DNA from: Novosphingobium pentaromativorans US6-1 | Lineage (GTDB): Bacteria > Pseudomonadota > Alphaproteobacteria > Sphingomonadales > Sphingomonadaceae | DNA: 64,000 nucleotides | Assembly (NCBI RefSeq): GCF_000767465.1 | Contig: NZ_CP009293.1 | Span: 186,001 to 250,000 of the forward strand | Reading direction: 5' to 3' | Part shown: piece by piece, positions 36,718-55,258 of the stretch | Layout of the letters: every line of letters starts with the position of its first letter | How positions within the stretch are numbered: position 1 is the first letter of the stretch | Notes under the pieces: model-generated | The model's input: the letters and a program-made list of their open reading frames with translations, nothing else | Told to the model about the DNA's origin: nothing | Database searches by the model: none | Made by a program: the position numbers and the translations under genes

Positions 36718-37627
36718 AGACCGGCTAGGCCGGGTCGCGGGTGCGCTGGCGGTCGATGAAGCCTTTGTCGAAAAGGACTGGTACGTCATCCAGGCGATCG
36801 GGCGCCTGAGTGAAATGGCGACCGACAATTTCGTGCTGGTCTTCTCTGGCGGCACATCGCTGCTCAAGGGTTATGACCTCATCCGCAGATTCTCCGAGGA
36901 CATCGACTTCAAGCTCAGCCTCGCAGAGGGTTTCCTCGACCTGTCCCGTAACCAGCGGAAAAACGCGCTGAAAACCTTTCGCGAGAGCGTGGTCGCTGGC
37001 TGGCATGATCTCGGCTTCACGGTCACGTCATGCATTTCGCGCGATGAGTATCGGTTCATCGAGCTGGAGATGAACTACCCCAGCATGCTCGCACCGCATA
37101 ATTCCCTTCGTCCCCATATTCTTGCGCAGATCTCAGCGAAGCCTCCCAGGCTCCCGGTCCAGCAGCGCGCGCTGTCGTCCTTTGTGGGGCAGGCGTCGAG
37201 GTCCGGTCCCGAGGTGCCAGCAATCGCTTGCGTGGACCCGGTCGAAACAGCGGCGGACAAGCTGAGCGCATTCTCCTGGCGGATGCTACTGCGCGATCGG
37301 ACGCATCCCAATGATGATCCAGCAATCGTCCGCCACTTGCACGACCTGGCCGCGCTCGAGCCGCTGGCTATGGGCTATGACGATTTTGCCGAGTTGCTGC
37401 GGACCGTGCTGGTGGAAGACAGCGCACGCGGGCAGGGCGGCGTCGCGGAGCTCGGTCCAGTGGCCCGGCTTGCCGCCATGCGCGCCAGGCTCGCGGACGA
37501 TCCGGTCTACGCCGAGGAATATGCGCGCTTCGTTGGCGGAATGGCCTTCGCCGGCGAGGCGCAGGTCCCCGACTACGAGGCGGCGGTCGCGGCCATCGGC
37601 CGATTGTGTGGTCTGCTGACCGACTGA
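36692..37627 (+). CDS. AbiEii-like nucleotidyltransferase toxin
   Basis: A 311-residue member of the nucleotidyltransferase AbiEii/AbiGii family. The nucleotide-binding SGGTSLLKGYDLIRRFSEDIDFKL contains the GS/GTS and DxD elements (Asp pair in EDID). Next come HDLGF and VETAADKLSAFSWR, common to the family. Two starts are possible (36680 and 36692); both lie inside the antitoxin gene, giving translation coupled to it. In studied systems such toxins modify tRNA or other acceptors and act bacteriostatically; the target here is unknown. Confidence 0.83.
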   Translation: MSFSNAPDEDRLGRVAGALAVDEAFVEKDWYVIQAIGRLSEMATDNFVLVFSGGTSLLKGYDLIRRFSEDIDFKLSLAEGFLDLSRNQRKNALKTFRESVVAGWHDLGFTVTSCISRDEYRFIELEMNYPSMLAPHNSLRPHILAQISAKPPRLPVQQRALSSFVGQASRSGPEVPAIACVDPVETAADKLSAFSWRMLLRDRTHPNDDPAIVRHLHDLAALEPLAMGYDDFAELLRTVLVEDSARGQGGVAELGPVARLAAMRARLADDPVYAEEYARFVGGMAFAGEAQVPDYEAAVAAIGRLCGLLTD

Positions 37628-37677
37628 CTGGCGATTATCCGTCTCGACATCTTGACGGGAGACATCCCGATCCGAAG

Positions 37678-38739
37678 ATGGTCCTCATGGACTGCTTTAG
37701 GATCGACGAGAGCGGCTATACGGGTTTCGACCTGCTGAATGCCGACCAGCGCCTCCAGGGCGCGAGCGCGATTGCCATCAGCGACGATGACGCTGCTCGA
37801 CTGATCCGTGATCATTTTCCGACCCTTCAGGCGGCCGAGCTCAAATATCGCGCGCTCGCACGCCGCCCGGCAAACCATCCGCGTCTGATCGGGCTCATGC
37901 GCGATGCGCTGAGCGCGCACAAATGCACGACCTACGTGTGCGACAAGCGTTTTCTGCTCGCCCTCATGTTCGTCGATTATGCGGTCGAGCCTTTCTACTA
38001 CGAGCGGAATCTCGACCTTTATGCCGATGGCCGCAACTATGCGATGGCCTCGCTTCTCCATAGCGTCGGGCCGACCTTGTTCGGTGCCGGCTCCTACAGG
38101 CGCCTGATGGCAGCTTTCCAGCGAGCCATGAAGGAAAAGAGCCCGACCGGCTTGAAAGCCCTTGTCGCCGCGGCGCGCGCGATGAACTGGCAGGCGCTCG
38201 ACGAAGTGCTCGGGCCGCTCGCAACAGGGTCGAGGGCGTGCCTTGCGGCGATCGCGACCCCTGGCGTCAGTACGGATGCTGCGATGGTGGTCTTGCAGGC
38301 GCTGATCACCCGGATGGAAGAGATGACCGATGGGCCCTACCGCATGGAACACGATCAGTCGAAGAACCTGCTCACCTATCACGGGCTGATCCAGAAGCTG
38401 ATCGAGCACGAGGATGAGATCGAGTTTCGCCAGTCCGAGATTGCACGGATGAAGTTTCCGCTGAAGCTGGCGGAAGTGACCCAGGTGGACTCGAAGACCA
38501 GCCCGGCGGTGCAGATCGCAGACATCCTGATCGGGGCGGCCATCGAGGCGGGAAATATGCGGGCGGGTCTGCGCAAGGGCGGACCCGATCCGCTTGCAGT
38601 CCTCTCGCTCTATGCCGAGGACCAGTTCATTCATCTGCTGCCCTCGATCGACTTCGAAGAACAGCATCGTTTCCGTTCGGGCACCCAGGCCTCGGAGTTC
38701 ATCGACTATTATGCCGCGAACTTCGGTTCGATGTCGTAG
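37678..38739 (+). CDS. DUF3800 domain protein
   Basis: A 353-residue protein of the DUF3800 group: it opens with FRIDESGYTGFDLL, has a long helical middle, and ends with VDSKTSPAVQIADILIGAA. The two acidic motifs resemble an RNase H/integrase-like fold, which is why a nuclease role is often suspected for this group; no activity is known to me. The ATG at 37678 is the likely start because it gives MVLMDCFRIDES; the upstream part of the open frame overlaps the toxin end. It follows the AbiE toxin by 50 bases, perhaps in the same transcript. Confidence 0.68.
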   Translation: MVLMDCFRIDESGYTGFDLLNADQRLQGASAIAISDDDAARLIRDHFPTLQAAELKYRALARRPANHPRLIGLMRDALSAHKCTTYVCDKRFLLALMFVDYAVEPFYYERNLDLYADGRNYAMASLLHSVGPTLFGAGSYRRLMAAFQRAMKEKSPTGLKALVAAARAMNWQALDEVLGPLATGSRACLAAIATPGVSTDAAMVVLQALITRMEEMTDGPYRMEHDQSKNLLTYHGLIQKLIEHEDEIEFRQSEIARMKFPLKLAEVTQVDSKTSPAVQIADILIGAAIEAGNMRAGLRKGGPDPLAVLSLYAEDQFIHLLPSIDFEEQHRFRSGTQASEFIDYYAANFGSMS

Positions 38740-38785
38740 GGAAGGGGGCGCCTCGACTCCATCGGAGCGAGGCGCCGGCCGCGAA

Positions 38786-39061
38786 TTAGCCGTTGAGCTT
38801 GTCCTTGACCGCCTTCGCCACGGTGAAGGTGAGCTTCCGGGAAGCAGCGATCTGGATGGTTTCGCCATTGGCCGGGTTGCGGCCTTCGCGCGCGGGCGCG
38901 TCCTTCACCTTGAACTTCCCGAACCCGTTGAGGCTCACTTCCTCGCCCTTGGCGGCAGCCTCCGCGATCGCCGCGAAGACAAGGTCGACCGCCTTGCGGG
39001 CATCCGCCTTGGTCGTGCCCGTCTGGCTGGCGAGGGTCTCGGCGAGCTCACTATTATTCAT
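38786..39061 (-). CDS. HU-family DNA-binding protein
   Basis: A 91-residue histone-like protein: MNNSELAETLASQTG then the helical dimer core, the beta-arm signature REGRNPANGETIQIAASR and a short C-terminal helix. It should bind and bend DNA as a dimer and assist replication, recombination or gene control on the element. It is convergent with the DUF3800 gene at 37678 and stands alone. Confidence 0.93.
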   Translation of the reverse strand: MNNSELAETLASQTGTTKADARKAVDLVFAAIAEAAAKGEEVSLNGFGKFKVKDAPAREGRNPANGETIQIAASRKLTFTVAKAVKDKLNG

Positions 39062-39133
39062 TCGAACGGTCCTTCATGGCAGTGGAAATCGCTCACTGCA
39101 TAACCGCCTGAACCGGCCCGCGCCATCGGCGTG

Positions 39134-40243
39134 CTAGATCTGCATGAAAATGTCGGCCTTATAAGTGTCCGACAGGCTCATGACACGATGGGCGAATGCC
39201 TCATTCTCTTCCGCGGCCTGATCGATGAGACGCGCCAGCTTCGCTAGGTTGTCGCGCTGCGGTTCGCTGAGCGCCGCGTGATCGGCACGAACGGTATCCA
39301 AGTCGGTGCCGACCACATAGGAGAAGAATTTGCCCAGAAGTCCGGCGACGACATCGCAGACCTGGATCAACGGCTCCTCCTGCGAGTCCACGAACCGGAA
39401 ACTGTCGACCGGCACGCGGTCCCGCATCAGGGGATCGGCCATGAACTGGCGGCGGACGACCTCCTCGAGGTCGAGCACATGCGTCGAGTTGCGCAGCAGT
39501 GCGATCCTGTGCCGGAAGAAGATGTCGAAACCCTCGATGAGGATATGCCGATCCTCATCGCTGCCTTCGATGAATGGGAAGCTCTCGCGCTGAATGGCGT
39601 CCTCGAGCACCTGGGCAAGGAGACCCCCATAGAGGGGATGGAGCTGGTCTGCTTCCTCTCGAACCATCTGCAGCAGAACATGGTAGAATTGCGGACCATC
39701 GCGCGGATCGAGCGCTGGATAGTTGAAGAAGCGGAAGAGATCGGTGGTTGCCTCAATGTCCCGGCGAAGCGCGATGTTGAGCATGTCCTTGAGAGCCGGC
39801 GCAACCAGCAGTAGCTCTTCACGCTCGGCCGCCATAAGCGCGGCGTCGACAATGTCGACCAGCGACCAGTAGATCATGTCCAGGCACTGGTAGTGGAGGA
39901 ATAGGTCGTTTTCAGCGATCCAGTCGAGAAGGATGCCTAGACGCCGGAAGCCCAGCAGGTCGAGGAAATCGCCCTTGCCGATGTGTGCGAGCTTCATCTC
40001 CTTGGTAGTCGGCTGCAGTTTGAGAGCGATGCGCAGAGGGGCGATGTCGATCGGCCTGCAGGCACCCTGATGAGCGATGCCGGCGAGAACGAAGCATCCC
40101 GGCTTATCGACATTCAGGCCATCGGCCGTGACATGCAAACGGCGGATGTTGTTCGTCTCGTCATAGTAGAGCGTGTAGGGTATATCGGCGCGATGCAGCC
40201 CGTGGAGCCGGACATCGGTGCGGCGGAGGTTGTCGATATCCAT
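39134..40243 (-). CDS. Second DUF3800 domain protein
   Basis: A 369-residue protein with the DUF3800 pattern: YTLYYDETNNIRR near the N-terminus and FVDSQEEPLIQVCDVVAGLLG near the C-terminus. The middle is helical. It is unrelated in detail to the DUF3800 protein at 37678, so the two are not a recent duplication. It lies 72 bases beyond the HU gene on the same strand and may share its direction of transcription. Function unknown; nuclease-like fold suspected. Confidence 0.7.
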   Translation of the reverse strand: MDIDNLRRTDVRLHGLHRADIPYTLYYDETNNIRRLHVTADGLNVDKPGCFVLAGIAHQGACRPIDIAPLRIALKLQPTTKEMKLAHIGKGDFLDLLGFRRLGILLDWIAENDLFLHYQCLDMIYWSLVDIVDAALMAAEREELLLVAPALKDMLNIALRRDIEATTDLFRFFNYPALDPRDGPQFYHVLLQMVREEADQLHPLYGGLLAQVLEDAIQRESFPFIEGSDEDRHILIEGFDIFFRHRIALLRNSTHVLDLEEVVRRQFMADPLMRDRVPVDSFRFVDSQEEPLIQVCDVVAGLLGKFFSYVVGTDLDTVRADHAALSEPQRDNLAKLARLIDQAAEENEAFAHRVMSLSDTYKADIFMQI

Positions 40244-40831: not shown

Positions 40832-41443
40832 ATGATCCAGCAGGACCTCTTCACGGCGGCGGCCCCTCAGCGGAAGACGGGCATGCCCGACGTCGTTCGC
40901 ACCATCGCGGAGCATTCCGCGCGGCCGCGCTATACCTTCATGGTGCTTGACCTCATTGCGCGGGTTGCCCGGGCAAACGGACAGGCGGGGCCGCTCGTTC
41001 GGGAAGGCGAGGCACTCGTGCCGATCCGCGAATGGCTGGCCGCAACAATCGCGCCAAGCGGGGCGCGCCATCATCAGCGCCGCGCGACCGCGGATAAGGT
41101 GCGGGCCGCGCTAGTTGGCAAAGGAAATCTGCCGGGCGACGCGGCCGAGGCCGATCGCCTGGTCGAGGCGGAAGTCAACGAGCGCATCCGCGAAACCGGC
41201 ATGACGGCGATCAGTCGAGCGGTATCGGAGTTGGTGAGGGCAGGGCTCATCACGCGCCACTATCAGGGCTTCTTCGTGGATCACGAAAACCGGGGTGCCC
41301 AGCGTCATGCGGTGTACACCGTGACGGATGCGGTCCGGGCCGCGCTTCACCCGAGCATGGCCACCAGTGAAAATCGGCGGCAACCCTATGTCCGCGGGCC
41401 GCACGGGCAGCGCCGGGCAGCGGCAGCGCGCGCCGCGGGTTAG
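40832..41443 (+). CDS. Hypothetical protein with wing-helix-like region
   Basis: 203 residues from ATG 40832 (MIQQDLFTAAAPQRK); the frame is open further upstream but runs through the repeat at 40737-40775. The middle (TAISRAVSELVRAGLITRHYQGFFVDHENRGAQRHAVYTVTDAVRAAL) looks like a winged helix. The C-terminal tail is basic. It is convergent with the abortive-infection operon, overlapping it by 4 bases. No family assigned; a DNA-binding role is plausible. Confidence 0.5.
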   Translation: MIQQDLFTAAAPQRKTGMPDVVRTIAEHSARPRYTFMVLDLIARVARANGQAGPLVREGEALVPIREWLAATIAPSGARHHQRRATADKVRAALVGKGNLPGDAAEADRLVEAEVNERIRETGMTAISRAVSELVRAGLITRHYQGFFVDHENRGAQRHAVYTVTDAVRAALHPSMATSENRRQPYVRGPHGQRRAAAARAAG

Positions 41444-42336
41444 ATGTCCTGCCCGTGCTGTGGGAGCGCGCGCTTCTCCTGGCGCTCCCAGGTCTCGATC
41501 AGGAACAACGCCAGCGAACTGGCGGCGTTGATCGCGAGGCGAGCGATGCGTGGATCGATCCGCCTGAAGCCCTTTTCACGCCCATGGGCGTCACCACCAT
41601 GCGTTCGCAACGCACCGATGCCTTTCGCGACCGACGTCAGGCCGCTCAGAATCTGGCGGATGTCGCCCTCTATTTCAGCGGGTAGATCGGTGCGGCCCGG
41701 CGACAAGTTCAACGGCTCCTGAACGGCGCGGATGAGGCCATCGATGTCCTTGCGGGCCGGCAGGGGCAGTCCGAGCTCGATGAGGATGGAGCGGCAGACC
41801 GCCTCGATGAGCGAACAGGCGGCCGTCACCGCATCTTCCGGGTCGTCCTGAAGGTTGGGGAGGGCGCGCGCGATCTCCATCTGCACCGTGTCGAAGTCGA
41901 GTGTCGCCACCTTCTGGATGAAAGGCTCGACGATCGTCCCGGAGCTCTGGCGTCTGGTCAGCACCGCCTTGCCGCCGACGATCACCACCGCCAGCTTATC
42001 CGCGGCGAGCGCCTTGTTGAGATGCTCGCGAACCGCGTTCGCCTTGTCGGGCTCGGTCAGATATTCGCGCGGATCGCAGACTTTCTCGATGATCCGGGTG
42101 ATGTAGATGTCGCCTTGGCCGTCATGGTGATTGGAGGTCTGGCGCAGGAAATCCGTCGTCGCCGGCACGCGCGAACTCGACCCAATACGCATGTCGAGGC
42201 CGCAATCGAGGAAGAATTGTTCGATCTTCGGGCCCGAGCGATAAATGCCGATTGCCGGGCTATTGTCGTTGCCCGCGCCGCCGGTGATCGTGTCGACCAG
42301 TGCCTTGATGACGAAGGTAGAGAATTTGCCGCTCAT
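41440..42336 (-). CDS. Abortive infection protein with Abi C-terminal domain
   Basis: A 298-residue protein. The C-terminal half matches the Abi_C pattern: DPEDAVTAACSLIEAVCRSIL, then GLPLPARKDIDGLIRAVQEPLNLSP, then GIGALRTHGGDAHGREKGFRRIDPRIARLAINAASSLALFLIETWE. In this family the conserved His/Asp segment HGGDAHG is a hallmark. The N-terminal half is poorly conserved. Its ATG overlaps the stop of the HEPN-type gene upstream (ATGA), so the two are co-translated. Phage defence is inferred from the family. Confidence 0.75.
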   Translation of the reverse strand: MSGKFSTFVIKALVDTITGGAGNDNSPAIGIYRSGPKIEQFFLDCGLDMRIGSSSRVPATTDFLRQTSNHHDGQGDIYITRIIEKVCDPREYLTEPDKANAVREHLNKALAADKLAVVIVGGKAVLTRRQSSGTIVEPFIQKVATLDFDTVQMEIARALPNLQDDPEDAVTAACSLIEAVCRSILIELGLPLPARKDIDGLIRAVQEPLNLSPGRTDLPAEIEGDIRQILSGLTSVAKGIGALRTHGGDAHGREKGFRRIDPRIARLAINAASSLALFLIETWERQEKRALPQHGQDI

Positions 42337-42995
42337 GGCTTGGTTGCCAGGAGAGCAAGGACCGATTGCTTTCCATCCATCCAGGCGGCGGCGATCTGGC
42401 TTCGCCAGGCGATCATGTCATGTATCCGCTGATAATCGTCGTCGATGTTCCGCGTGAACACTGGCTCATGATGCGCGATCCGGTTGCGCAGCAGCCGGAT
42501 GATACGCAGATCCGCATGTGCTGTCGCACGGCACTGCGCGATGGTTTGAGCCGGCGGCGCACCTGGAAAGCAAGCGCGGAAATGCGCGTTCCATATGCGA
42601 CTGTCCTGCCCTGCGGTGAAGAGGGTTTCCCAGAACGCGAATTTGAGTTCGGCGATGACTTTGCCCGTCGTAGGCAGGCTGGCTGCGCAGGTTTGCAGGT
42701 CGATTGCGGGGTTGTAGCGGAACCGGCCTTTGGGGCGAGGCAGGCTTCGGATGAAGCCGTTATTCCAGGGCCAATTTGCGCCGTGGACGCGCTCGATCGC
42801 TTCCGCAACGCCATTCCGGACCGCGACCTCGCATACCTGAAGCGGTACGATCAGGGCCGCGGAAAGGTCGAGATTCCATTCGTAGAGTGCGAGCGCCTGC
42901 TCCCGATCGTTGCCCATTGCTTGCAGATAGGTTGCAAAGCGGGGTGCAGAGATGACGATTGGCAGTTCGTGTATCTCGTCCTGGGAAAAGGGCAA
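42333..42995 (-). CDS. Abi family protein with HEPN-like RxxxxH motif
   Basis: About 220 residues of the Abi-like (AbiD/F) family. The N-terminal part reads ISAPRFATYLQAMGNDREQALALYEWNLDLSAALIVPLQVCEVAVRNG and the C-terminal part RIIRLLRNRIAHHEPVF, the Arg-x4-His catalytic pattern of HEPN RNases. I chose TTG at 42995 because AGGA lies 8 bases upstream; the frame is open to TTG at 43037, but that codon touches the promoter-like TATATA. First gene of a two-gene operon with the Abi_C-domain protein. A probable ncRNA is transcribed divergently from the start region. Confidence 0.75.
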   Translation of the reverse strand: MPFSQDEIHELPIVISAPRFATYLQAMGNDREQALALYEWNLDLSAALIVPLQVCEVAVRNGVAEAIERVHGANWPWNNGFIRSLPRPKGRFRYNPAIDLQTCAASLPTTGKVIAELKFAFWETLFTAGQDSRIWNAHFRACFPGAPPAQTIAQCRATAHADLRIIRLLRNRIAHHEPVFTRNIDDDYQRIHDMIAWRSQIAAAWMDGKQSVLALLATKP

Positions 42996-43018
42996 TGTAG
43001 GCGTCCTGTCGGAGGCTA

Positions 43019-43046
43019 TTGACGATCCCGTCAACAACCCTATATA
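43019..43046 (+). promoter_or_regulatory. Strong sigma-70-like promoter for a short transcript
   Basis: TTGACG at 43019-43024 and TATATA at 43041-43046, 16 bases apart, close to the general housekeeping consensus. The -35 region lies in a dyad (TTGACG/CGTCAA). No open reading frame follows before the terminator at 43105-43133. On the other strand the same TATATA lies just upstream of the Abi gene start, so both units may be controlled from here. Confidence 0.6.
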
Positions 43047-43051
43047 GAGAA

Positions 43052-43133
43052 GGCTGGCATTGAGAACGCGGGCTTACGCCCCCCCTCATTGCTTAAGGAT
43101 ATCGAAGGCCCGCCGTAAGGTGGGCCTTTTTTT
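43052..43133 (+). ncRNA. Candidate small RNA next to the Abi operon
   Basis: Predicted transcript of about 80 nt between the promoter above and a strong terminator. It contains a GGGC-TTAC-GCCC hairpin flanked by a weaker GAG/CTC stem and ends in the terminator stem. Families of structured RNAs (abiF motif) are known beside abiF-type genes; this could be a relative. Not tested; the start point is estimated from the -10 box. Confidence 0.5.
43105..43133 (+). terminator. Rho-independent terminator
   Basis: Stem AAGGCCCGCC / GGTGGGCCTT (one G-T wobble) around a GTAA loop, followed by seven T residues. One of the clearest terminators in the window; it only makes sense for a plus-strand transcript starting near 43052, because the nearest plus-strand gene upstream ends at 41443. 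Confidence 0.85.
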
Positions 43134-43368
43134 GTGCCAAAACGTGGAGCGAATCGGCCCGAAAGGCAAGTGCAACCTAAGCCCAGATCAATCCAATATA
43201 TATTGGATCCAGAACCGGGCGGGTAGCGCGGGGTAAGGAAGCCCGATACTCAAGAGCGTGCGCATTACAGAATCGGTCGATGCAACGGCGCCGCTCGTTT
43301 CGTGAGATGATGCCCCTTCTATCGTCGTATCGGCCAAACCGCTCGTGAGCACACGGAGGAGCGGGACG

Positions 43369-43710
43369 CTATTCTTTCGGAACATCGGTCTCGCCTGCCC
43401 TGCGGTCCCGATACAATGCGGCTCGCGCTAAGAGCATGAGGGTAACCGGCGTCGTCAACGTCACGAATATGCCGATCAGGATTTCATGCACCACAGGCCG
43501 GGATTGCAGCACTGAAAAGCAGGTGATCGAGGCGACCAGAATGCAAAGCGTGCCCAGCGTAGGACCTAAAGTGGGGGCGTGAACTCGCTCGTAAAAGCTG
43601 CTCAGCCTGATCAAGCCCAAGGTGCCCACCAAGGTAATCAGCGCACCTAAAAGCACGAATATCCCGACTATGAGCGCGGCCCAGAGCGGAAGTTCGGGCG
43701 CTTGGATCAT
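43369..43710 (-). CDS. mrpG: Na+/H+ antiporter subunit MrpG
   Basis: A 113-residue membrane protein with three hydrophobic segments and the MrpG pattern LGTLGLIRLSSFYERVHAPTLGPTLGTLC. Last gene of the mrp operon; it overlaps the mrpF stop (ATGA). Needed for assembly and activity of the Mrp complex in other bacteria. The 235 bases between its end and the terminator at 43133 hold no convincing gene. Confidence 0.9.
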   Translation of the reverse strand: MIQAPELPLWAALIVGIFVLLGALITLVGTLGLIRLSSFYERVHAPTLGPTLGTLCILVASITCFSVLQSRPVVHEILIGIFVTLTTPVTLMLLARAALYRDRRAGETDVPKE

Positions 43711-43988
43711 TCGATTACTTCTCCGCGCATGAGAAACTTGGCGAAAGCCACCGTTCCTGCGAAACCCAGAAGTGCAATGACAAGGGCCCCTTCGAAAAAC
43801 AGCGTTCGGCCGGTCTGTATGCCATAGGTGAGAAGCAGGAGCATCCCTGCGAGGTAGAGCGCATCGAGTCCCAGAACCCTGTCCTGCGCTCGCGGCCCGC
43901 GCATCACTCGAAAAGCTGCGCAGCCCATGGCGAGGCCGAGGATGATCTGCGCCGCGGTAATGGCCAGAGCCAGGATCAACGTGTTCAA
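43707..43988 (-). CDS. mrpF: Na+/H+ antiporter subunit MrpF
   Basis: About 93 residues, three membrane segments, with the family core GPRAQDRVLGLDALYLAGMLLLLTYGI. The start is uncertain: I chose TTG at 43988, which overlaps the mrpE stop as TTGA and gives the usual MrpF length; longer frames run inside mrpE. MrpF contributes to ion translocation in the complex. Confidence 0.87.
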   Translation of the reverse strand: MNTLILALAITAAQIILGLAMGCAAFRVMRGPRAQDRVLGLDALYLAGMLLLLTYGIQTGRTLFFEGALVIALLGFAGTVAFAKFLMRGEVIE

Positions 43989-44467
43989 CCGAATATCTCC
44001 GTCAGAAGCGTCTCGTAGCGGTTCTTGATGAGCTCGATCCATTGCGCTTCGTCCACCAGATCGAGGACGTGGATCAACACGATCTTGTTGTGGGCTTCGT
44101 GCTGCAGCCACAAGGTGCCCGGTGTCGCGGTGATGATGATCGCAAGTGTGGCCAGCGCATAAGGGTTATCTAGCTCGATCGGCAGACGGATGAAGCCGGA
44201 CTTCCGTTCGGACGGTCGAAAAAGGACGATACGGGCTACGGCGATATTCGACCTCACAATGTCCGCAAAAACGATGGCGGTGAGCTTCATCAGGGCCTTG
44301 CCAAACCGGATACGCGGCCGTGCGGGCGCGAGGGGCAGCATGACGCGCGAGAGCAGGATCGCGATCACCGCTCCGAGCAGAATATGACCAAGCGAGAATC
44401 CGGTCAGCAGCACCCACATGCCGAAGATCGCGGTTGCAAGCAGGGGAAATGGTAACAGGCGCTTCAC
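43985..44467 (-). CDS. mrpE: Na+/H+ antiporter subunit MrpE
   Basis: 160 residues from GTG at 44467, which overlaps the mrpD stop. It has two N-terminal membrane segments and the cytoplasmic domain pattern FADIVRSNIAVARIVL, DNPYALATLAIIITATPGT and VLDLVDEAQWIELIKNRYE. The longer open frame upstream lies inside mrpD and is rejected. Confidence 0.88.
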   Translation of the reverse strand: MKRLLPFPLLATAIFGMWVLLTGFSLGHILLGAVIAILLSRVMLPLAPARPRIRFGKALMKLTAIVFADIVRSNIAVARIVLFRPSERKSGFIRLPIELDNPYALATLAIIITATPGTLWLQHEAHNKIVLIHVLDLVDEAQWIELIKNRYETLLTEIFG

Positions 44468-46086
44468 GATGGGTCCTCGCCGGCGCGCGGGGCGGAGCGG
44501 ACGATATCGATATAGCTTGAGCGGTCGGCGAGTGCTGCAGCGGTGGCCTCCATGTAGCGATACAGGGGCCCGGCTCCCACCATCAACGCCAGGCAAGCGG
44601 CGAGCAGGACACCGATGGGCGCGACTTCGATCACACTCAGTCGAGCCGGAGAATCCTCTCCGGGTGTCCACAGCAGATCGATGCCGGCCCGGGTCATGGC
44701 TATTAGCGTGGCCAGGCCGGAAAGGATGATGAGAGCGATGAGGATCCATGCGGCAGGTTCGATGATGACGTCATCGAACAGGGCATCGATGATCGCGAAT
44801 TTCGCGATGAAGCCCGACAGGGGCGGCAGTCCGGCAAGGAGGAGCGTGCAGAAGATGAATCCGCCGCCCAGGATCGCGATAGTGCCAGGAATGACCACGC
44901 CGATTTCGGTTTCTTCCCCCACCACCGCGCCGGTATATTCGTCGTCGAACACCGGTTCGGCGATACCCGCGATGATGTCTTCCTCGTCCGCGTTGCGTTC
45001 AACGGGCTCGATGATCAAGTAAAGCGCGCCCACCGCGAGGGTCGAACTCACGAGGTAGAACAGCAGTGCTGCGGTCAAAGCCTGGCCACCCAGGCCGATA
45101 GCCGCCAGCAGCGTCCCCGAAGAGACCAGCACGTAATGACCTGCGACGTGTGTAAGTGAGCGGGTCGCAAGGATACCCAGCGTGCCGAATAGCATTGTCG
45201 CGAAACCTGCCCAGATCAACCATTGGTCGGCGAACCCCGCTGCGTCGCCCGATGTGTCGTCAAACATCAGCGAAGTCAGGCGCAGGACGATATAGATGCC
45301 GACCTTGGTCATGATTGCGAAGATGGCCGCGACTGGCGGTGCCGCCGCGGCATAGGTGCGCGGCAGCCAGAAACTGAGGGGCCAAATACCCGACTTGACG
45401 AGAAACGCGACGCCAAGGATCGCGGCACCGGCTTCCAGCAGCATCAGATCACTGGCCGGCACCATCGGGATCCGCGACGCGAGATCAGCCATGTTGAGTG
45501 TACCAGTCACAGCGTAGATTATTGCCACCCCGATCAGGAAGAGTAGCGATGTTGCGATGTTGATAGTGATGTAATGAAGGCTCGCCTTCGTCCGTTCCGC
45601 GCCCGAGCCATGCAGGATGAGACCATAGGAGGCCGCCAGCAGAACCTCGAAGAAAACGAAGAGGTTGAAGATATCGCCGGTGAGGAAGGCACCGTTCACT
45701 CCGGCCACCAGTAGCAAGAACAGCACGTGAAACCTCGGCCCCGAGCGGTCCCAGCGCGCCAAGGCATAGAATAACGCAGTGAACCCGAGTACGCTCGTGA
45801 CGAGCAACATCAGGGCTGCAAGCCGATCCGCGACCAGCACTATTCCGAAGGGAGCAGGCCAGTTGCCGAGAAGATAGGCTCCTGCAGGACCGGTGTCACC
45901 GATAGCGAGGCGACCGTCGGCCTGCCACAGAAGCAAGGCTGCAATGACGACCAGCCCGGCCATGGTGGTCAGACTGAGCACCCGCTTCAACGCCCGCCGC
46001 CGCTCGTTGAATGCAAGCATGACGGCGCTGACCGCCATTGGCAAGACGATCGGGGCGATGATGAAATGCTGCATCCAGCCTGTCAT
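44464..46086 (-). CDS. mrpD: Na+/H+ antiporter subunit MrpD
   Basis: A 540-residue antiporter-like subunit of the NuoL/M/N superfamily with about 14 membrane segments. The family motifs include SYGLILHGSGAERTKASLHYITINIATSLLF, KSGIWPLSFWLPRTYAAAAPPVAAIFAIMTKVGIYIVLR and LAGLPPLSGFIAKFAI, with conserved Lys and Glu residues for proton movement. It overlaps mrpC and mrpE by 4 bases each. Confidence 0.92.
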   Translation of the reverse strand: MTGWMQHFIIAPIVLPMAVSAVMLAFNERRRALKRVLSLTTMAGLVVIAALLLWQADGRLAIGDTGPAGAYLLGNWPAPFGIVLVADRLAALMLLVTSVLGFTALFYALARWDRSGPRFHVLFLLLVAGVNGAFLTGDIFNLFVFFEVLLAASYGLILHGSGAERTKASLHYITINIATSLLFLIGVAIIYAVTGTLNMADLASRIPMVPASDLMLLEAGAAILGVAFLVKSGIWPLSFWLPRTYAAAAPPVAAIFAIMTKVGIYIVLRLTSLMFDDTSGDAAGFADQWLIWAGFATMLFGTLGILATRSLTHVAGHYVLVSSGTLLAAIGLGGQALTAALLFYLVSSTLAVGALYLIIEPVERNADEEDIIAGIAEPVFDDEYTGAVVGEETEIGVVIPGTIAILGGGFIFCTLLLAGLPPLSGFIAKFAIIDALFDDVIIEPAAWILIALIILSGLATLIAMTRAGIDLLWTPGEDSPARLSVIEVAPIGVLLAACLALMVGAGPLYRYMEATAAALADRSSYIDIVRSAPRAGEDPS

Positions 46087-46424
46087 TGATCGTCCTCCTC
46101 GCCGTCTACATGGTCTGTTCCGGTCAGGCCTCGTGAGGCGAGCAGGACAACCAGGAGAAGCGCCGTCGTCGCAAAGGAGATGACAATCGCCGTCAGAACG
46201 AGAGCCTGGGGGACAGGGTCCGCGTAGAGCGCGGGGTCGGCGACCTCCTTGCCGACGATCGGCGGTGCGTCCATACGCAACCGACCGGCTGCGACGATAA
46301 ACAGGTTAACCGCGTAGGAGAGGAGCGAGAGGCCCAGCACGACCTGGAAGGTGCGGGGCCGGAAGAGGAGCCAGAGCCCGGAGGCCGTCAGGAAGCCAAT
46401 GGCAAGTGCGAGCACGACCTCCAT
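46083..46424 (-). CDS. mrpC: Na+/H+ antiporter subunit MrpC
   Basis: A 113-residue NuoK-like subunit with three membrane segments and the core FRPRTFQVVLGLSLLSYAVNLFIVAAGRL and DPVPQALVLTAIVISFATTALLLVV. It starts at the last base of mrpA and overlaps mrpD. Confidence 0.92.
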   Translation of the reverse strand: MEVVLALAIGFLTASGLWLLFRPRTFQVVLGLSLLSYAVNLFIVAAGRLRMDAPPIVGKEVADPALYADPVPQALVLTAIVISFATTALLLVVLLASRGLTGTDHVDGEEDDQ

Positions 46425-49357
46425 CAGGCGGACCTCTCCTGGCTGTCGCTGTCAACCGGAGAGCTTGTCGCCGATCGGCGTGCCGCTGGCGTGCGGATGG
46501 ATTGGTGCGCGAGCGCGATAAGGATCAGAACGGTCGTACCCACCACCACAGCGAAGACCCCGATGTCGAACAGCAGAGCACTGGCGATGGGGATCTCGCC
46601 GATGATTGGCAGATCGAGATAGCTGGAGTGCGTCGTCAGGTAAGGGTAGCCGAATAACCAAGCGGCCGCGCCGGTCGCAGCTGCGCACAAAAGTCCGGCA
46701 GCGATCCAGCGAACCGGTTGCACATGAAGCCTTGCCTCAACCGATCGAGTTCCGTTGGCCATGTAGAGCAGGATGATTGCAATCGATGCCGTAACCCCGC
46801 CCGCGAAGCCGCCACCAGGAAGATTGTGGCCACGGGCCAGGAGGTAGAGCGCGCAGGTCAATATGAACGGAAATAGCCATTCCATAATGACTCGCGGCAC
46901 AAGCAAATAGTGTTCGGCGGTATCCCCAAACGCATTGTCGTCATGGGCGTCATCGAAGGCATTCTGCACCTTCTGCTGGTCGGGTAATTCGATGCTCTCG
47001 GCGGCAGGGCGGAACCGCCGCAAGAGCGTGAACACCGTCAACGCTACGATGGCCAGCACCGTTATCTCGCCCAGCGTATCGAAGCTTCGAAAATCGACCA
47101 AAATCACATTGACAACATTGGTCCCGCCACCGCTCGGATAAGCCCGCTGCATGAAGAAGTCCGAAATACCGCTCGGTGCAGGGCGAGTCATGATCGCGTA
47201 AGCGATTGCCGCCACGCCGACGCCGCCCATCACGGCCAGTACTAGGTCGCCGCTGCGGCGGACGCGCACCTTGAAAGGGACCTGATCGTCACGCCAGAAC
47301 TCTGGGAACCGCTGAGGCAGCCACCGCAATCCCAGCAACAGCAAGACCAGCGTCACGATCTCCACAAGCAGTTGGGTGAGGCCAAGATCAGGAGCTGACA
47401 ACCAGATAAAGCTGATGCAGGTCGAAAGACCGGCGACCCCTACCATGGCGAGCGCGGCGAGGCGGTGGAATTTGGCTTGAATGGCCGCGCCGATCGCCGC
47501 CGCGCTGCCCAGCAGCCAGAGCACGGCGAAGACCGGATCGAGTAGGGTGGGGCCGAGCGTGCCGAAGCTATAACCAAGCGAAAGAAGGGGCAGGCCGCCT
47601 GCTGCGATCGCGGTGACGACCAGAAGGCGCAACTGGACCTGTTGTCGGCTTGTACTCACCAGTCGATAGGCAGCACGCGCTCCATCGATGAGGGCTGCGA
47701 GCACAACCTCGAACGTTCGTCTGCCCTTCAGCCGGCCAATGATGGGGGGACTGGTCATGGTGTTGAGGCGACCACCAAAGAGCCGGTAGAAGGTTACTCC
47801 TCCGACGAGCGCTATCGTGCTCATGAGCAGAGGCAAAGTGAAGCCGTGCCAGACGGCCAGGCTATAGGCGGGCGTCCTGCTGCCCAGCACAGATTGCACC
47901 GCCATGTCGAGGAAGGGACCTATCGTCAGGGCCGGGATCGTTCCGACGAGAATGCACAAGAGCACAAGAATCTCGACCGGCAAACGCATCCAGTGGGGCG
48001 CCTCATGCGGCGTGCGGGGAAGCTCGGTAGGCGGAGGGCCGAAGAAGGCCTGATGGATGAAGCGTAGGGAATAGAAGACACTGAACATGCTTGCCAGTGT
48101 TGCGAGCATTGGCAACGCCCAGTCGAGGAATGTGCCGCTGTGCGCCTCGAGCGCCTCGGCCAGGAACATCTCCTTCGAGAGAAAACCATTGAGCAGAGGC
48201 ACCCCGGCCATGGCCGCGGCCGCTACCATCGCCAGCGTTGCGGTTACAGGCATGTAATGGACGAGCCCGCTCAGCTTCCGAAGGTCGCGGGTTCCCGTCT
48301 CGTGATCAATAATCCCTGCAGCCATGAAGAGCGACGCTTTGAAAGTTGCATGGTTCACGGTGTGGAAGATCGCAGCAACGGCTGCGAGCTGACTGCCAAG
48401 CCCCAGCAGCAGGGTAATGAGCCCGAGATGGCTGATCGTCGAATAAGCCAGGAGGCCTTTCAGATCGTGCTGGAAGATCGCAGCCCAAGCGCCGACGAGC
48501 AAAGTCGTCAGTCCCGCGGTCGTGACGATCAGATACCAGGTCCCGGTTCCGGCAAGGACTGGCCAGAGTAGGATCAGCACATAGATGCCGGCTTTCACCA
48601 TCGTCGCCGAGTGGAGATAGGCCGACACAGGGGTGGGAGCCGACATCGCGTGCGGCAGCCAGAAATGGAAGGGAAACTGTGCGCTCTTGGTGAAGGCGCC
48701 GATCAAAACCAGGATCAGTGTGGGCAGGTAGAGATCGTGGGTACGGATCAGATCGCCGGCCAACAGTACCTTGTCGAGATCGTAACTGCCAACGATCCGA
48801 CCAAGCAGCAGGAAGCCGATAAGCAGGCACACTCCGCCGGCGGCAGTCGTGATCAGCGCCATTCGCGCGCCATCGCGCGCACTCTGATTATGATGCCAAT
48901 AGCCGATCAGCAAAAACGAAAAGAGGCTTGTCAGCTCCCAAAAAAACACGATCTGGAGGAGATTGCCCGACAGTACAATGCCGAGCATGGACCCCATGAA
49001 TGCCAGCAAGAACGAGAAAAAGCGCGGCACCGGATCCTTTGGTGACATGTAATAACGGGCATAGAGTACCACGAGGGCACCGATCCCAAGGATCAGAAGA
49101 GCAAAGAGCCAAGAAAATCCGGTAATTCTGAATGTGAAATCGAGCCCCAATGATGGGAGCCAGGGCTCGATGTATCGAACCGTTATGCCGTCGGAGACGG
49201 CGTGATAGAAGCCGAACAGAAGCGCCAAGGCGCCCAGCGTGACCACGCCGGCGAGGATCGAGGCCCAGTTTCTTGCGCGCGCTGGCAGGAATGCAGCGAC
49301 CAGACTACCGAGAAACGGGAGCGCGAGAATGAGGAGAGCGAGTCGCGCATCAGCCAT
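46424..49357 (-). CDS. mrpA: Na+/H+ antiporter MrpA-MrpB fusion
   Basis: A 977-residue membrane protein, first gene of the operon. It consists of a NuoL-like MrpA part with motifs FFWELTSLFSFLLIGYWHHN, TKSAQFPFHFWLPHAMSAPTPVSAYLHSATMVKAG, and FNATFKAS-type (VNHATFKASLFMAAG). A MbhD-like region follows (GLTQLLVEIVTLVLLLLGLRWLP). An MnhB domain closes it (MEWLFPFILTCALYLLARGHNLPGGGFAGGVTASIAI), normally a separate MrpB subunit. The fusion gives a six-gene operon that is functionally complete. The Mrp system exports Na+ in exchange for H+ and supports alkali and salt tolerance. Confidence 0.92.
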   Translation of the reverse strand: MADARLALLILALPFLGSLVAAFLPARARNWASILAGVVTLGALALLFGFYHAVSDGITVRYIEPWLPSLGLDFTFRITGFSWLFALLILGIGALVVLYARYYMSPKDPVPRFFSFLLAFMGSMLGIVLSGNLLQIVFFWELTSLFSFLLIGYWHHNQSARDGARMALITTAAGGVCLLIGFLLLGRIVGSYDLDKVLLAGDLIRTHDLYLPTLILVLIGAFTKSAQFPFHFWLPHAMSAPTPVSAYLHSATMVKAGIYVLILLWPVLAGTGTWYLIVTTAGLTTLLVGAWAAIFQHDLKGLLAYSTISHLGLITLLLGLGSQLAAVAAIFHTVNHATFKASLFMAAGIIDHETGTRDLRKLSGLVHYMPVTATLAMVAAAAMAGVPLLNGFLSKEMFLAEALEAHSGTFLDWALPMLATLASMFSVFYSLRFIHQAFFGPPPTELPRTPHEAPHWMRLPVEILVLLCILVGTIPALTIGPFLDMAVQSVLGSRTPAYSLAVWHGFTLPLLMSTIALVGGVTFYRLFGGRLNTMTSPPIIGRLKGRRTFEVVLAALIDGARAAYRLVSTSRQQVQLRLLVVTAIAAGGLPLLSLGYSFGTLGPTLLDPVFAVLWLLGSAAAIGAAIQAKFHRLAALAMVGVAGLSTCISFIWLSAPDLGLTQLLVEIVTLVLLLLGLRWLPQRFPEFWRDDQVPFKVRVRRSGDLVLAVMGGVGVAAIAYAIMTRPAPSGISDFFMQRAYPSGGGTNVVNVILVDFRSFDTLGEITVLAIVALTVFTLLRRFRPAAESIELPDQQKVQNAFDDAHDDNAFGDTAEHYLLVPRVIMEWLFPFILTCALYLLARGHNLPGGGFAGGVTASIAIILLYMANGTRSVEARLHVQPVRWIAAGLLCAAATGAAAWLFGYPYLTTHSSYLDLPIIGEIPIASALLFDIGVFAVVVGTTVLILIALAHQSIRTPAARRSATSSPVDSDSQERSA

Positions 49358-49736
49358 TCGATGGAAAACGTCCTTTGTGGGCCCAAAGCAACCTCATGAG
49401 CATTCCAGCCTTTATGGTTGCAATCCGGCCGATGGGGCAAGGCCTCGAACTATCTTTGTTTTCTTCGGCAAAGTGGGCACCGGCCGGCCCTTGGGTGCCA
49501 ATCCGACTGGCACACGCACCGCGATACTCGCGCACTAGTTTGACGAGCCAGTGGGGGGGCCGCCGACCAGCGCATCAAAAGGGGCGCAGTTCTCTTGCTT
49601 TGACGGTTACATTGGCTTCGGCTTGGGCGGCGTGCTGCCGGCCACCAATTGAGACCGTAGACGGACTGCCAAGAGCTGCAGGCGCCTTCGAAAACCGCCT
49701 AGGCACCGCTAGAGCCGGATCGTTTCCAACTGTGGC
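49358..49736. other. Gene-free spacer upstream of the mrp operon
   Basis: 379 bases between the start of the mrp operon and the residual SLC13 C-terminal fragment. It should contain the mrp promoter. I found no obvious consensus promoter, hairpin or repeat; open frames here are short shadows. Confidence 0.5.
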
Positions 49737-50312
49737 TCAGAACGGAAAGAAACGCTGTATCGCGAGAATCGCCGCGACGCACGTGATCAGGTTGAGCGGT
49801 AGGCCAACGCGGACGAAGTCCATGTAACGATAACCTCCCATCTGATAGACGATGACGTTTGTCTGGTAGCCGAATGGGGTGGCGAAGGCGGCACTCGCCG
49901 CCATCATCACGGCGACCAGAAACGGACGCGGGCTGACGGCGAGGCTTTCCGCGAGTGCCACCGCAACCGGTGTGATCAACACAGCCACGGTGGCATTGGA
50001 CAGGAGCTCGGTCAGGACCATTGTCACGAGATAAAGCACGATCAGCGCAATTAGCGGGCTCAGCCCGTAGACGCTGGCGATCAACATCTCAGATGCGGCG
50101 TCGGCGAGCCCGCTTTCCTCCATGGCGATACCGATCACCACCATGCCCGCGATGAGAACAAGGATCTGGGGCTTTAGGCCACTATAAGCTTCGTCCGCGG
50201 TGATCACACGCAATAGGATAAGCAGCACCGCGCCTGCGAGGGCCGTCGCGGCAATGGGCGCAGCGTTGAGCGCCGCCAGGGTGTAGCGCGACAAACTGGA
50301 TGAGGCAATGCG
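49737..50312 (-). pseudogene. SLC13-type transporter, C-terminal fragment after IS21
   Basis: The C-terminal half, about 190 residues, of a transporter of the SLC13/DASS type: ALNAAPIAATALAGAVLLILLRVI, LSNATVAVLITPVAVALAESL and FATPFGYQTNVIVYQMGGYRYMDF (the second hairpin motif). It is joined in frame to the truncated istB; the frame therefore reads as one 383-residue chimera, an artefact of insertion and deletion. The N-terminal half lies at 52550-53312. The boundary is placed at about 50290-50315. Confidence 0.8.
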
Positions 50313-52523
<2,211 letters not shown>

Positions 52524-52549
52524 ATTCTCATCTTGATTGTCGCGCCTTC

Positions 52550-53312
52550 TCATCCAGATCGCCGCGCAACAGCCAGGGAGACTGCGCCGACGAACACCCC
52601 CAGTGCGGTCAGGGCCTTGCGCAGCTTAAGCGGGCGTTTCGCCGACCTGGGCGCTGGCGATATGCGATATATCCACCGGTGACACGTCTTCTTCGCGATC
52701 TTTATGTTGAAGCAGGCGGCCGCTGATGAGAAACAGGTAGAGTCCACCGACTATGGCCATCGGCAGCCCCACAGGCGTAATCTCGAAAATGCCAAATCGC
52801 GGCTGACCAGCGATACGCGCCATGTCGTCGACAAGAAGATTGGTCGAGGTAACGATCAGGGTGCAGCAACCAGTAAGCACGGTGATGTAAGAAAGCGGCA
52901 TCAAATACCGTTTCGGCGACTGCCGAAGGGCGTTGGCAACGTCGCGGATGACGGGTGCGCCGAGCACGACGATAGGTGTGCTGTTGAGAAAGCAGGAGAC
53001 CCCGCCGATCATCGAAAGCAGCAGCCAAAGTCCCTTCGGCCCCATCCGTTGGCACAAGGAGACCCCCAGGCTGATGGCCCGGTCGAGAAGACCGGAGAGC
53101 TCGAGCGCGTATGCAATGACAAATAGCGAGGCCAGAGCGATGATCGCCGGGCTGGCGAATGCCCCTTGGACTTCTGACGGTCGGACAACCCCGGTCATCA
53201 GGAGAATGGCAGCCCCAGTCAGCGCCACGACATCGGCGCGCAGACGATCCCAGATCATCATCACGACAACCCCGGCTAACACCAACAAGGTGAGAACTTG
53301 ATCTACCGTCAT
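52550..53312 (-). pseudogene. SLC13-type transporter, N-terminal fragment, frameshifted
   Basis: The N-terminal half of the transporter at 49737-50312: MTVDQVLTLLVLAGVVVMMIWDRLRADVVALTGAAILL, then the first hairpin GGVSCFLNSTPIVVLGAPVIRDVA and TGCCTLIVTSTNLLVDDMA. The main frame stops at 52626, but the continuation LKLRKALTALGVFVGAVSLA follows in another frame, so one base was gained or lost near 52630 besides the IS insertion at about 52540. The start ATG at 53312 (a longer start exists at 53348). The family transports dicarboxylates, sulfate or related anions, usually with Na+. Confidence 0.78.
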
Positions 53313-53418
53313 CACAAACTGCCTCGAACGATGGCTTGCACGTGTCAATGATTGGGCTCACCCAGCCGCGTCGATTATGGTCTGGAGAGAACTCATCATT
53401 TTGCCTATCAATGGCTGG

Positions 53419-54294
53419 ATGCATGAGCCAAGCCCCAGGACCAGCCGCCTTGTGATTGCCGGCACGCTTGCCGCCACTATGGCAATCGGTACGGCCGGCT
53501 ACTTTATCGGGCGATCGAGTTCGCCTGGCCCTAGTTCGCCTGCCCTGGCTCCGCAGCAACCGGCCGTGATCGTTACGCCGCGTCCGCCTGAACAGCCCCG
53601 CATATTGGGGCGCGCTGATATTCTCACTCTCGGCGATCGTGCGGCCGATGCCTTGGCATCCGAGCGTCCCTTGCCGCAAGATGTCGCCAAGCTTGCGGGA
53701 CGCCGTTTCGAACTGGCGATCCCTTTCGGCTGCACCGGTCCAGCGCCGAAGGGCGCGGAGCCCCTCTTAAGTTGGCGCTACGATGCTGCAGTCAAGGCGC
53801 TGCGTATCAACGTACAGTTGACTGAATGGCAGGCATCGGAATGGAACCTTGCCGATGCGGTCGCCTCATCTCGCAAGATCGAAGGCCTCTGGGTCCGGTG
53901 GCCGTGGTCCTCATCGGAAGTCTGCTCGCAAAATGTCGGCCAAGCCGTCGCGACCGATGCGAAGCCCATAACGTTGCCCGGACAGACCCTTGCGATCGGT
54001 CTGATCGGACCTTCCGATCTCGCTGGTAAGGAACGGTTCCCACGCGCCTTCGACGCCGTGAAGCAGGTGGAGCCAGATCAACTGAATGCGGCACGCGGCT
54101 TCGTGCTGTGGCTGACCGGGCGCGTCGGCAAATTGCCTGATGGTCAGCCAGTTCGCTGTGTTCAGCCAGCAGGTGTCGAGCAAAAGCCGATATGCCTGGT
54201 TGCGCTCTCGCCAGAGGAACTGCGGGTCGAGAACCCGCTCTCAGAAGACGTGGTCGCGATCTGGTCGATCGGAGATATTGAGCGAAGAGATTGA
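53419..54294 (+). CDS. Hypothetical membrane-anchored periplasmic protein
   Basis: About 291 residues from ATG 53419 (other starts at 53377 and in between are possible). One N-terminal membrane segment (TSRLVIAGTLAATMAIGTAGYFIG), a Ser/Pro/Ala-rich linker, then a soluble domain with four Cys residues (GCTGPAPKGAEPLLSWRYD, SSEVCSQNVGQ, VRCVQPAGVEQKPICLVAL), likely disulfide-bonded in the periplasm. It is divergent from the broken transporter. I recognise no family. Confidence 0.55.
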   Translation: MHEPSPRTSRLVIAGTLAATMAIGTAGYFIGRSSSPGPSSPALAPQQPAVIVTPRPPEQPRILGRADILTLGDRAADALASERPLPQDVAKLAGRRFELAIPFGCTGPAPKGAEPLLSWRYDAAVKALRINVQLTEWQASEWNLADAVASSRKIEGLWVRWPWSSSEVCSQNVGQAVATDAKPITLPGQTLAIGLIGPSDLAGKERFPRAFDAVKQVEPDQLNAARGFVLWLTGRVGKLPDGQPVRCVQPAGVEQKPICLVALSPEELRVENPLSEDVVAIWSIGDIERRD

Positions 54295-54540
54295 GCCATT
54301 TGCGTGATCCCGCGCAGAGATTTACCATATCGCAAGTGGCGGTCGATCACTGGGAGGCTCAACCAACAGTCCATGCCGCATCGACGGATTGCTTGGTGAT
54401 AGGCAGTGCCCCAAGAAATCGGGATAGCTATGTCCGATAAATGGGATTCTCGGACATAGGAATTAGCTCTCAGAGGTTCGTCACGGCAGTTCAGAAATGG
54501 TGCGGCGACGACAGATTGACGTGCTTGCGGGGCAGCACGT

Positions 54541-54855
54541 TCAGGGCGCCATATCATCGCGGAAACGATCCATCTGATGCATGCGCTCATGCAGCACCGA
54601 GACGATGCCCACGGTTCCGTCTGACAGGGTCCGCCAGTCGACATAATGATGTTCATGCCGCGCATAAAAGCCATCGACACCGAACTCTGTCGGGATCGCT
54701 CGCCATGTGGTTTCACGCCGAGCGATCCGATCGAAGCAATCGAACAGGCCGCGAACATAGCTTTCAGCCTGGGCGTCGCCCCATTTGTCGCTGGTATAGG
54801 CAAATATCTCGTCGAGCCGTTGCCCAGCGATCGCGGAAACGCGATAAGCTGCCAT
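54541..54855 (-). CDS. ParE/RelE-type toxin
   Basis: A 104-residue toxin of the ParE/RelE superfamily: YRVSAIAGQRLDEIFAYTSDKWG, AESYVRGLFDCFDRIARRE and the C-terminal strand pair HHYVDWRTLSDGTVGIVSVLHERMHQMDRF. It begins 2 bases after the antitoxin stop. ParE members poison gyrase and RelE members cut mRNA; the sequence alone does not separate the two. 54295-54540 upstream on the other side holds no gene. Confidence 0.85.
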   Translation of the reverse strand: MAAYRVSAIAGQRLDEIFAYTSDKWGDAQAESYVRGLFDCFDRIARRETTWRAIPTEFGVDGFYARHEHHYVDWRTLSDGTVGIVSVLHERMHQMDRFRDDMAP

Positions 54856-54857
54856 GA

Positions 54858-55115
54858 TCAGTTGCGGCGGTTGCGGGCGATCACAGCATCCGCGTCCAAC
54901 GCGGTGAAGCTGGCTTCGGGCCCATCGAATGCCTGGGTCAACTCGGCCTTGAGACGTTCGAACCGTTCCGCTTCAAGGCGCTCCTTGTCCCGGCGAATGA
55001 GATCGCACACATATCCGCTGACATTTTCGTAGCTGCCATCCGCGCCGACATTGGCCGCAACGAAATCGCTCAGCGCGCCGCTGAGCCGAACATTAAGCGT
55101 AACGGGTTTGTTAAT
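54858..55115 (-). CDS. ParD-like ribbon-helix-helix antitoxin with non-standard start
   Basis: Reading the minus strand gives NKPVTLNVRLSGALSDFVA, then ENVSGYVCDLIRRDKERLEAERFERLKAELTQAF, the ParD pattern of beta strand, helices and acidic tail; about 85 residues. No ATG, GTG or TTG precedes NKPVTL in frame. The best candidate is ATT at 55115, 9 bases after AGGAG. Alternatively the first codons were lost by mutation (the frame continues upstream as ETSTI). The gene stands directly before the toxin as in parDE operons. Confidence 0.7.
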   Translation of the reverse strand: MNKPVTLNVRLSGALSDFVAANVGADGSYENVSGYVCDLIRRDKERLEAERFERLKAELTQAFDGPEASFTALDADAVIARNRRN

Positions 55116-55258
55116 CGTCGAAGTCTCCTGTGCAGATATTATTCAATATTGTGGACGGTATCAAGACCTCCGGGACGAGGATCGGCGCTTGCGGCCACCT
55201 CCCCTGCCCTTACAAGAAATTCTTGAAACTTTCATATTATGGAAGTATTAGGAATTTT

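Follow-up and report, generated by a model that had tools for sequence, protein, structure and literature searches.

The window analysed here, a stretch of 64,000 nucleotides from Novosphingobium pentaromativorans US6-1 (contig NZ_CP009293.1, positions 186,001 to 250,000), carries on its reverse strand the gene of an AbiF-like HEPN ribonuclease (RNase), referred to below as the Abi gene (42333..42995; 220 amino acids plus stop, start codon TTG). Back to back with it, on the forward strand, lies a predicted small RNA of about 80 nt (43053..43134), whose limits rest on its fold and on a model of its relatives, the 5' end being guessed from the promoter. An earlier note on this DNA had proposed that the two form an RNA-controlled defence or toxin-antitoxin module. 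Our comparison of the locus with its relatives leads us to regard it as likely that the module works like AbiF-AbiFr, as a type III-like toxin-antitoxin or abortive-infection module.

The RNA is compactly built. A promoter-like site on the forward strand (43019..43046) consists of a -35 box TTGACG (43019-43024), a spacer of 16 bases and a -10 box TATATA (43041-43046), as the earlier note had read it. A core hairpin follows on the same strand (43056..43093), with an outer stem P1 (43056-43064/43085-43093), an inner stem P2 (43070-43073/43078-43081) and a C-rich strand on the 3' side of the internal loop (43082-43084). Then comes the intrinsic terminator that the note had also recognised, with a stem of 11 pairs (43104..43129), TTTT and a T-rich tail to 43134. 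For 43054-43133 the folding energy is -37.6 kcal/mol (z -4.26), a value that none of 200 shuffles equalled, and model R1, built on 21 such RNAs, matches the window at 43048-43137 with 90 bits, its only match on the RNA strand at that place. No conserved reading frame was seen: the interval 43048-43140 holds a 27-codon TTG frame without a stop, and loop lengths differ by single bases among 21 relatives. The RNA has one core hairpin and a terminator, not the tandem repeats of type III antitoxins.

The promoter-like site is not listed by a promoter-finder rule that requires T at the last -10 position. Its TTGA is nonetheless invariant across 19 aligned loci, and the best promoter-like score 5' of the RNA averages 9.0 out of 12 in 30 relatives, against 6.7 in mononucleotide shuffles. 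Under a stricter rule applied to 26 loci, the scores were 7.3 against 6.5 on the RNA side and 6.3 against 6.25 on the gene side, where no sigma-70-like promoter above chance was found for the Abi gene. An unrecognisable gene promoter facing an RNA promoter that scores above shuffles suits an excess of antitoxin. Over the -35 box lies a dyad of no particular strand, TTGACG-N4-CGTCAA (43019..43034), which occurs 15 times in 903,497 bases, always at the RNA promoter, several of the occurrences being copies of one sequence; besides sphingomonads, two distant relatives (L048, L086) have it, and eight of 31 loci with the window's kind of RNA have it without its last base. It is a possible operator or a shared -35 element. 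We considered and set aside two other roles for the RNA. It is not the leader of a downstream gene, the next sizeable presumed gene (43369-43710) being on the opposite strand. Nor do we retain an antiterminator formed by the GCGGGC strand of the hairpin and the left arm of the terminator: this pairing is possible in 97.6% of cells in 21 RNAs, with two of six pairs changed on both sides, and nine of 500 shuffles score as high, but by inspection it is not kept in L045, L048, L049 and L054.

The protein belongs with AbiF by several measures. Its match to the Abi_2 profile (PF07751) is a narrow pass, 27.1 bits against a cut-off of 25.6, obtained with a 234-residue reading of the frame (42333-43037). 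The PADLOC model PD-T4-5 matches it at 4e-12 and also matches all 80 aligned relatives (E up to 0.001). While a sequence search of solved structures returned nothing useful, a fold search of them gave as its first match 8vz6_A, PbAbiF with its non-coding RNA (ncRNA), and the protein has the AbiF fold. The RxxxxH motif of HEPN RNases is present as RNRIAH (residues 170-175 of 220; codons 42471..42488, reverse strand), and its R170 and H175 are invariant in the 80 aligned Abi proteins. Membership in the AbiF kind of protein is thus supported. The back-to-back gene with an RxxxxH motif described by the earlier note is there, with one correction: the listed relatives are mostly about 220 residues long, and the probable start is therefore TTG 42995, not 43037; this keeps the gene clear of the RNA promoter and places its start 58 bp from the predicted start of the RNA.

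We looked at the same place beside relatives of the gene, using 79 loci from a peptide-pattern scan of the Abi protein over 84,980 species with one genome per species. Reading of the sequences revealed the same kind of hairpin in the DNA 5' of the gene in most of them. R1 finds RNAs of the window's kind, here class A, in 52 of the 79 (E up to 0.001); model R2, built on 31 RNAs, adds two; and R3, built on 14 hairpins of a second class, class B, which stands beside more distant Abi proteins, finds 16 more. An RNA thus adjoins the Abi gene in 70 of these protein-found loci, and in 69 it is divergent. The sole co-directional copy, in Thermomicrobiales (L069), is of class B and lies 5' of the gene on the gene strand (3899-3952), as in canonical abiF. 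Because a model necessarily matches the sequences from which it was built, independent weight comes from the other loci and from covariation. The nine loci without a model match comprise L054 and L056, which are class A by eye and resemble L055; L043, whose first 14 residues were not found and whose upstream DNA we could not identify; the Leifsonia genes L075-L077; and the fragments L078-L080. Plasmid loci fetched by protein carry the RNA in 10 of 12 cases (L082-L087, L089, L090, L129, L165), models R1-R3 finding none in L088 and L091. Class B hairpins occur in L057, L059-L061, L063-L074, L087, L089 and L090. The hidden Markov model start of the gene and the 5' end of the RNA model lie a median of 54 nt apart in class A and 56 nt apart in class B. 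This form of RNA and gene reaches other Alphaproteobacteria, Beta- and Gammaproteobacteria and Actinomycetota, and is consequently not specific to sphingomonads; the conservation of structure beside homologous genes on which the note had staked its proposal is found, together with that of position and orientation. One record, L051, is titled Bacillus subtilis SK7B5; our impression is that its GC-rich DNA looks foreign to Bacillus, and the label may be wrong.

Covariation bears out the structure. Among 21 RNAs, nine of 23 pairs change on both sides, against at most four in slid controls; in an alignment of 31 RNAs fitted to the model, which includes one hairpin without a gene (L098), the figures rise to 19 of 23 pairs and 78 cells, against at most nine pairs and 19 cells. 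Ten of the 13 pairs of the core hairpin change on both sides in this larger set, and the terminator stem covaries as well. In class B, 12 of 14 pairs covary, slid controls reaching at most four. We then placed the RNA classes on a tree of 58 chosen proteins (34 with class A, 19 with class B, five without a model match). Class A forms one side of a branch (support 91/94, not starred), and the class labels need three changes on the tree against 20.8 when shuffled, although not all deep forks are firm and there are long branches. The RNA class tracks the protein tree, as binding partners would.

How does the pair relate to systems already described? The covariance model of the abiF RNA, RF03085, gives no match here at E up to 10, and no Rfam family matches at gathering level at the RNA locus, so the RNA is not a member of the family with which the earlier note had linked it. 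In 349 Pseudomonadota genomes RF03085 has matches in nine, three of them over the cut-off and one in a Sphingomonadaceae genome (G041). In six of the nine the RNA is followed by a co-directional Abi-type frame with RNxCAH; in L131 the frame is short and resembles a truncated Abi gene, and in L132 and L133 none was recognised. Both RNAs are hairpins with a C-rich strand in the internal loop and an adjoining Abi_2-type gene, but RF03085 lies 5' of its gene and co-directional with it, whereas the window RNA is divergent. The loops differ too: the RF03085 loci shown have CGCCUCU (5' strand) and AUGCG (3' strand), the window RNA AACGCG and CCCC. By inspection, the loop of the window's kind of RNA, AAYGCG (5') and YCCC (3'), may be a strand-swapped form of the abiF loop. 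Class B is nearer to RF03085, since seven of 18 class B hairpins have CGCCUCU...AUGCG, and this common core suggests kinship. Class B is, however, not plain RF03085: R3 finds none of the nine RF03085 RNAs at E up to 1, its lone match (L133, E 0.91) lying elsewhere, and RF03085 at gathering level matches none of 17 more distant loci and, with E up to 10, also misses L071 and L049.

Among characterised systems, the AbiF RNA of Clostridioides difficile, RCd22, lies 5' of its gene, co-directional with it, and is reported to neutralise the toxin by direct binding (PMC12373285); PbAbiF-AbiFr (PDB 8VZ6), treated in a review (PMC12737573), has the same layout. The window differs from both in its divergent RNA and in its protein of 220 residues, which carries RNRIAHH and stands barely above the Abi_2 cut-off; RCd22, as described, also has two abiF motifs where the window RNA has one core hairpin. 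PD-T4-5 is a plasmid-borne Escherichia coli gene, distantly related to AbiF/D, reported to provide abortive-infection defence against T4 (PMC9519451). The accessible text of its description mentions no RNA, while the window gene has a divergent one, as does an E. coli plasmid relative (L165; class A, 52 bits). With the type III systems ToxIN, CptIN and TenpIN the locus shares an RNA gene adjoining an RNase gene and, as we propose here, direct neutralisation; according to the available part of PMC12804078 their antitoxins are tandem-repeat RNAs, in contrast to the single divergent hairpin and HEPN enzyme of the window. The Caulobacter small RNA CC3552 (RF01529) stays below its cut-off (20.7 bits against a gathering threshold of 50, E 0.37). 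In what could be consulted of the open-licence literature we found no description of a divergent AbiF RNA. According to PMC12804078, which cites them, Zilberzwige-Tal et al. (Cell 2025) made AbiF covariance models (AbiF5_iter3 and diverse_rna_xinsi), one of them thus named 'diverse', and the window RNA may already be covered by these. The RNA and its gene are a variant of the AbiF kind that is new unless those models cover the RNA.

The locus shows signs of mobility. Window positions 42103-50281 and 52572-55244 (8,179 and 2,673 bases) are 100% identical to a contig of a genome with another genus code (G257), which points to recent transfer as a block. The two matches overlap there by 7 bases, so that 50282-52571 resembles an inserted element that duplicated 7 bases of its target; a frame at 49737-50888 reads by eye as IstB-like and then transporter-like. 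Relatives occur in 396 of 72,556 plasmid records. The RNA is retained beside broken genes in L024, L046, L047 (same break), L062 and L093. Across 298 Sphingomonadaceae genomes, R1 matches 129 at E up to 0.001, but many matches below 40 bits are terminator look-alikes, matched on both strands. Ten reach at least 40 bits: four adjoin the gene (G000, G212, G257, G024), one lies at a contig end (L094), one is by eye a terminator behind RecA-like coding sequence (G067:C23), and four are hairpins without a gene. These last are found behind UvrC-like coding sequence in G177, twice in G175, and in G220, where the gene is in two pieces and the hairpin lies about 5 kb off, adjoining what looks by eye like an IS5-like transposase frame. 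Hairpins of this RNA that lack an adjoining Abi gene (L098:1501-1590, L099:1501-1591, L124, L128) would be solitary antitoxin copies or relics. The RNA has no match in 50,697 phage records. An 18-base pattern of it occurs in five viral contigs, where R2 finds no RNA and the matches read as coding sequence, and six peptide patterns of the Abi protein matched no viral contig. Five phage records encode Abi relatives, all below 60% identity, three of them Zymomonas records.

Downstream of the Abi gene on the same strand lies an Abi_C or AbiJ-like gene (41440..42336; PF14355, 77.9 bits; AbiJ model, 1e-15). The two overlap by 4 nt (ATGA), which makes the operon of the earlier note a fair description. 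An Abi_C relative is present in just 13 of the 79 loci, so this partner is optional. In L078 and L079 (3988-4959 in each), the Abi_C gene is retained while the Abi gene is reduced to its last 22 residues, and no RNA was found. Further off, an AbiEii gene (36725-37627, 96.9 bits) and two DUF3800 genes (37606-38739 and 39134-40243, the latter matching PADLOC PDC-S51 with 312 bits) make 36725-40243 a defence island. The sole Rfam match in the window is a group II intron (RF00029, 26092-26190, 53.7 bits).

In the mechanism we favour, the Abi protein would be a HEPN-fold RNase, active as a dimer and toxic in its free form. The RNA would be transcribed from its own good promoter, in excess over the toxin, and its core hairpin would bind the Abi protein directly and block the RNase site. 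Should the supply of RNA be lost, for example when a phage shuts off host transcription, the RNase would be freed, RNA would be cut and growth would stop; the Abi_C protein could be an optional second HEPN-type component. That the RNA persists beside broken genes speaks for this mechanism. The proposal of an RNA-controlled module gains from the conserved structure, position and orientation and from PbAbiF with its ncRNA as best fold match; what has to be given up is that the RNA belongs to the known family and lies in the known, co-directional layout. Against the core hairpin stands the centre of P1, where 18 and 21 of the 31 rows have a mismatch at two of the pairs. Linked inheritance alone would produce the same agreement between RNA class and protein tree. 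In a second, less favourable sample, the window protein finds 20 places in 16 of the 298 Sphingomonadaceae genomes, with class A in five by R1 or R2 (L139, L140, L141, L143, L144) and class B in three by R3 (L148, L150, L151); the other 12 have no RNA model match, so that part of the wider protein family falls outside the two classes. Among these 12, L142 and L155 belong to a single broken gene in two pieces, L158 is class B-like by eye, and the others mostly have 26-35% identity or are incomplete.

C-rich small RNAs of the anti-Shine-Dalgarno kind are known in Alphaproteobacteria, and the RNA could be one of these, pairing with targets in trans and sharing nothing with the Abi gene but its mobility. 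Its C-rich loop with CCUC, the four gene-less copies in Sphingomonadaceae and the recent transfer of the locus as a block all fit this idea. We nevertheless find it improbable, because 70 of 79 loci, from several phyla, show the linkage and RNA class agrees with the protein tree; moreover, the sequence of P1 varies freely while its pairing is kept, a pattern that fits a structure bound by a partner better than a seed for base pairing. Slim chances also attach to control in cis only, by type I-like antisense or by interference between divergent promoters, with no protein binding. The start regions do lie within about 60 bp, the dyad overlaps the -35 box of the RNA, and RCd22 is reported also to reduce the expression of its own gene in C. 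difficile (PMC12373285). Yet the RNA points outward from the gene and shows no complementarity to the coding part, the portion of the abi mRNA to which this comparison extends; interference needs no conserved, covarying core hairpin, and a co-directional copy exists in L069. It would be more surprising still if the RNA were a guide by which the Abi RNase recognises foreign RNA, as in Cas13, although in one review AbiF stands at the root of Cas13 and its ncRNA is taken as the forerunner of CRISPR RNA (PMC12737573, in the part available): we saw no variable guide-like stretch, core and terminator being conserved and the linker short, and the RNA is kept beside broken genes.

A pair of RNA and gene kept in such distantly related bacteria suggests, as the antitoxin mechanism has it, that the RNA is the safety catch of an enzyme used in defence against viruses. 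Going further, we give roughly even chances to the proposal that the RNA is the founding member of a class of antitoxins not described so far, one that occurs in Alpha-, Beta- and Gammaproteobacteria and in Actinomycetota and neutralises AbiF-fold HEPN toxins of the PD-T4-5 group. Divergent transcription would uncouple it from the toxin gene, so that the strength of its promoter, and not terminator read-through, would determine the excess of antitoxin. The layout also lends itself to testing, since deleting or relocating the RNA would leave the toxin mRNA untouched. If the RNA is an antitoxin, this would explain how PD-T4-5-like genes are silenced, and such Abi genes cloned without their intergenic region are predicted to be toxic. 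RNA-guarded RNases of the AbiF kind would be wider than the Rfam family and would include further RNA architectures; and if the strand swap of the loop is true, one and the same kind of enzyme would be restrained by an RNA motif that can be read in both directions.
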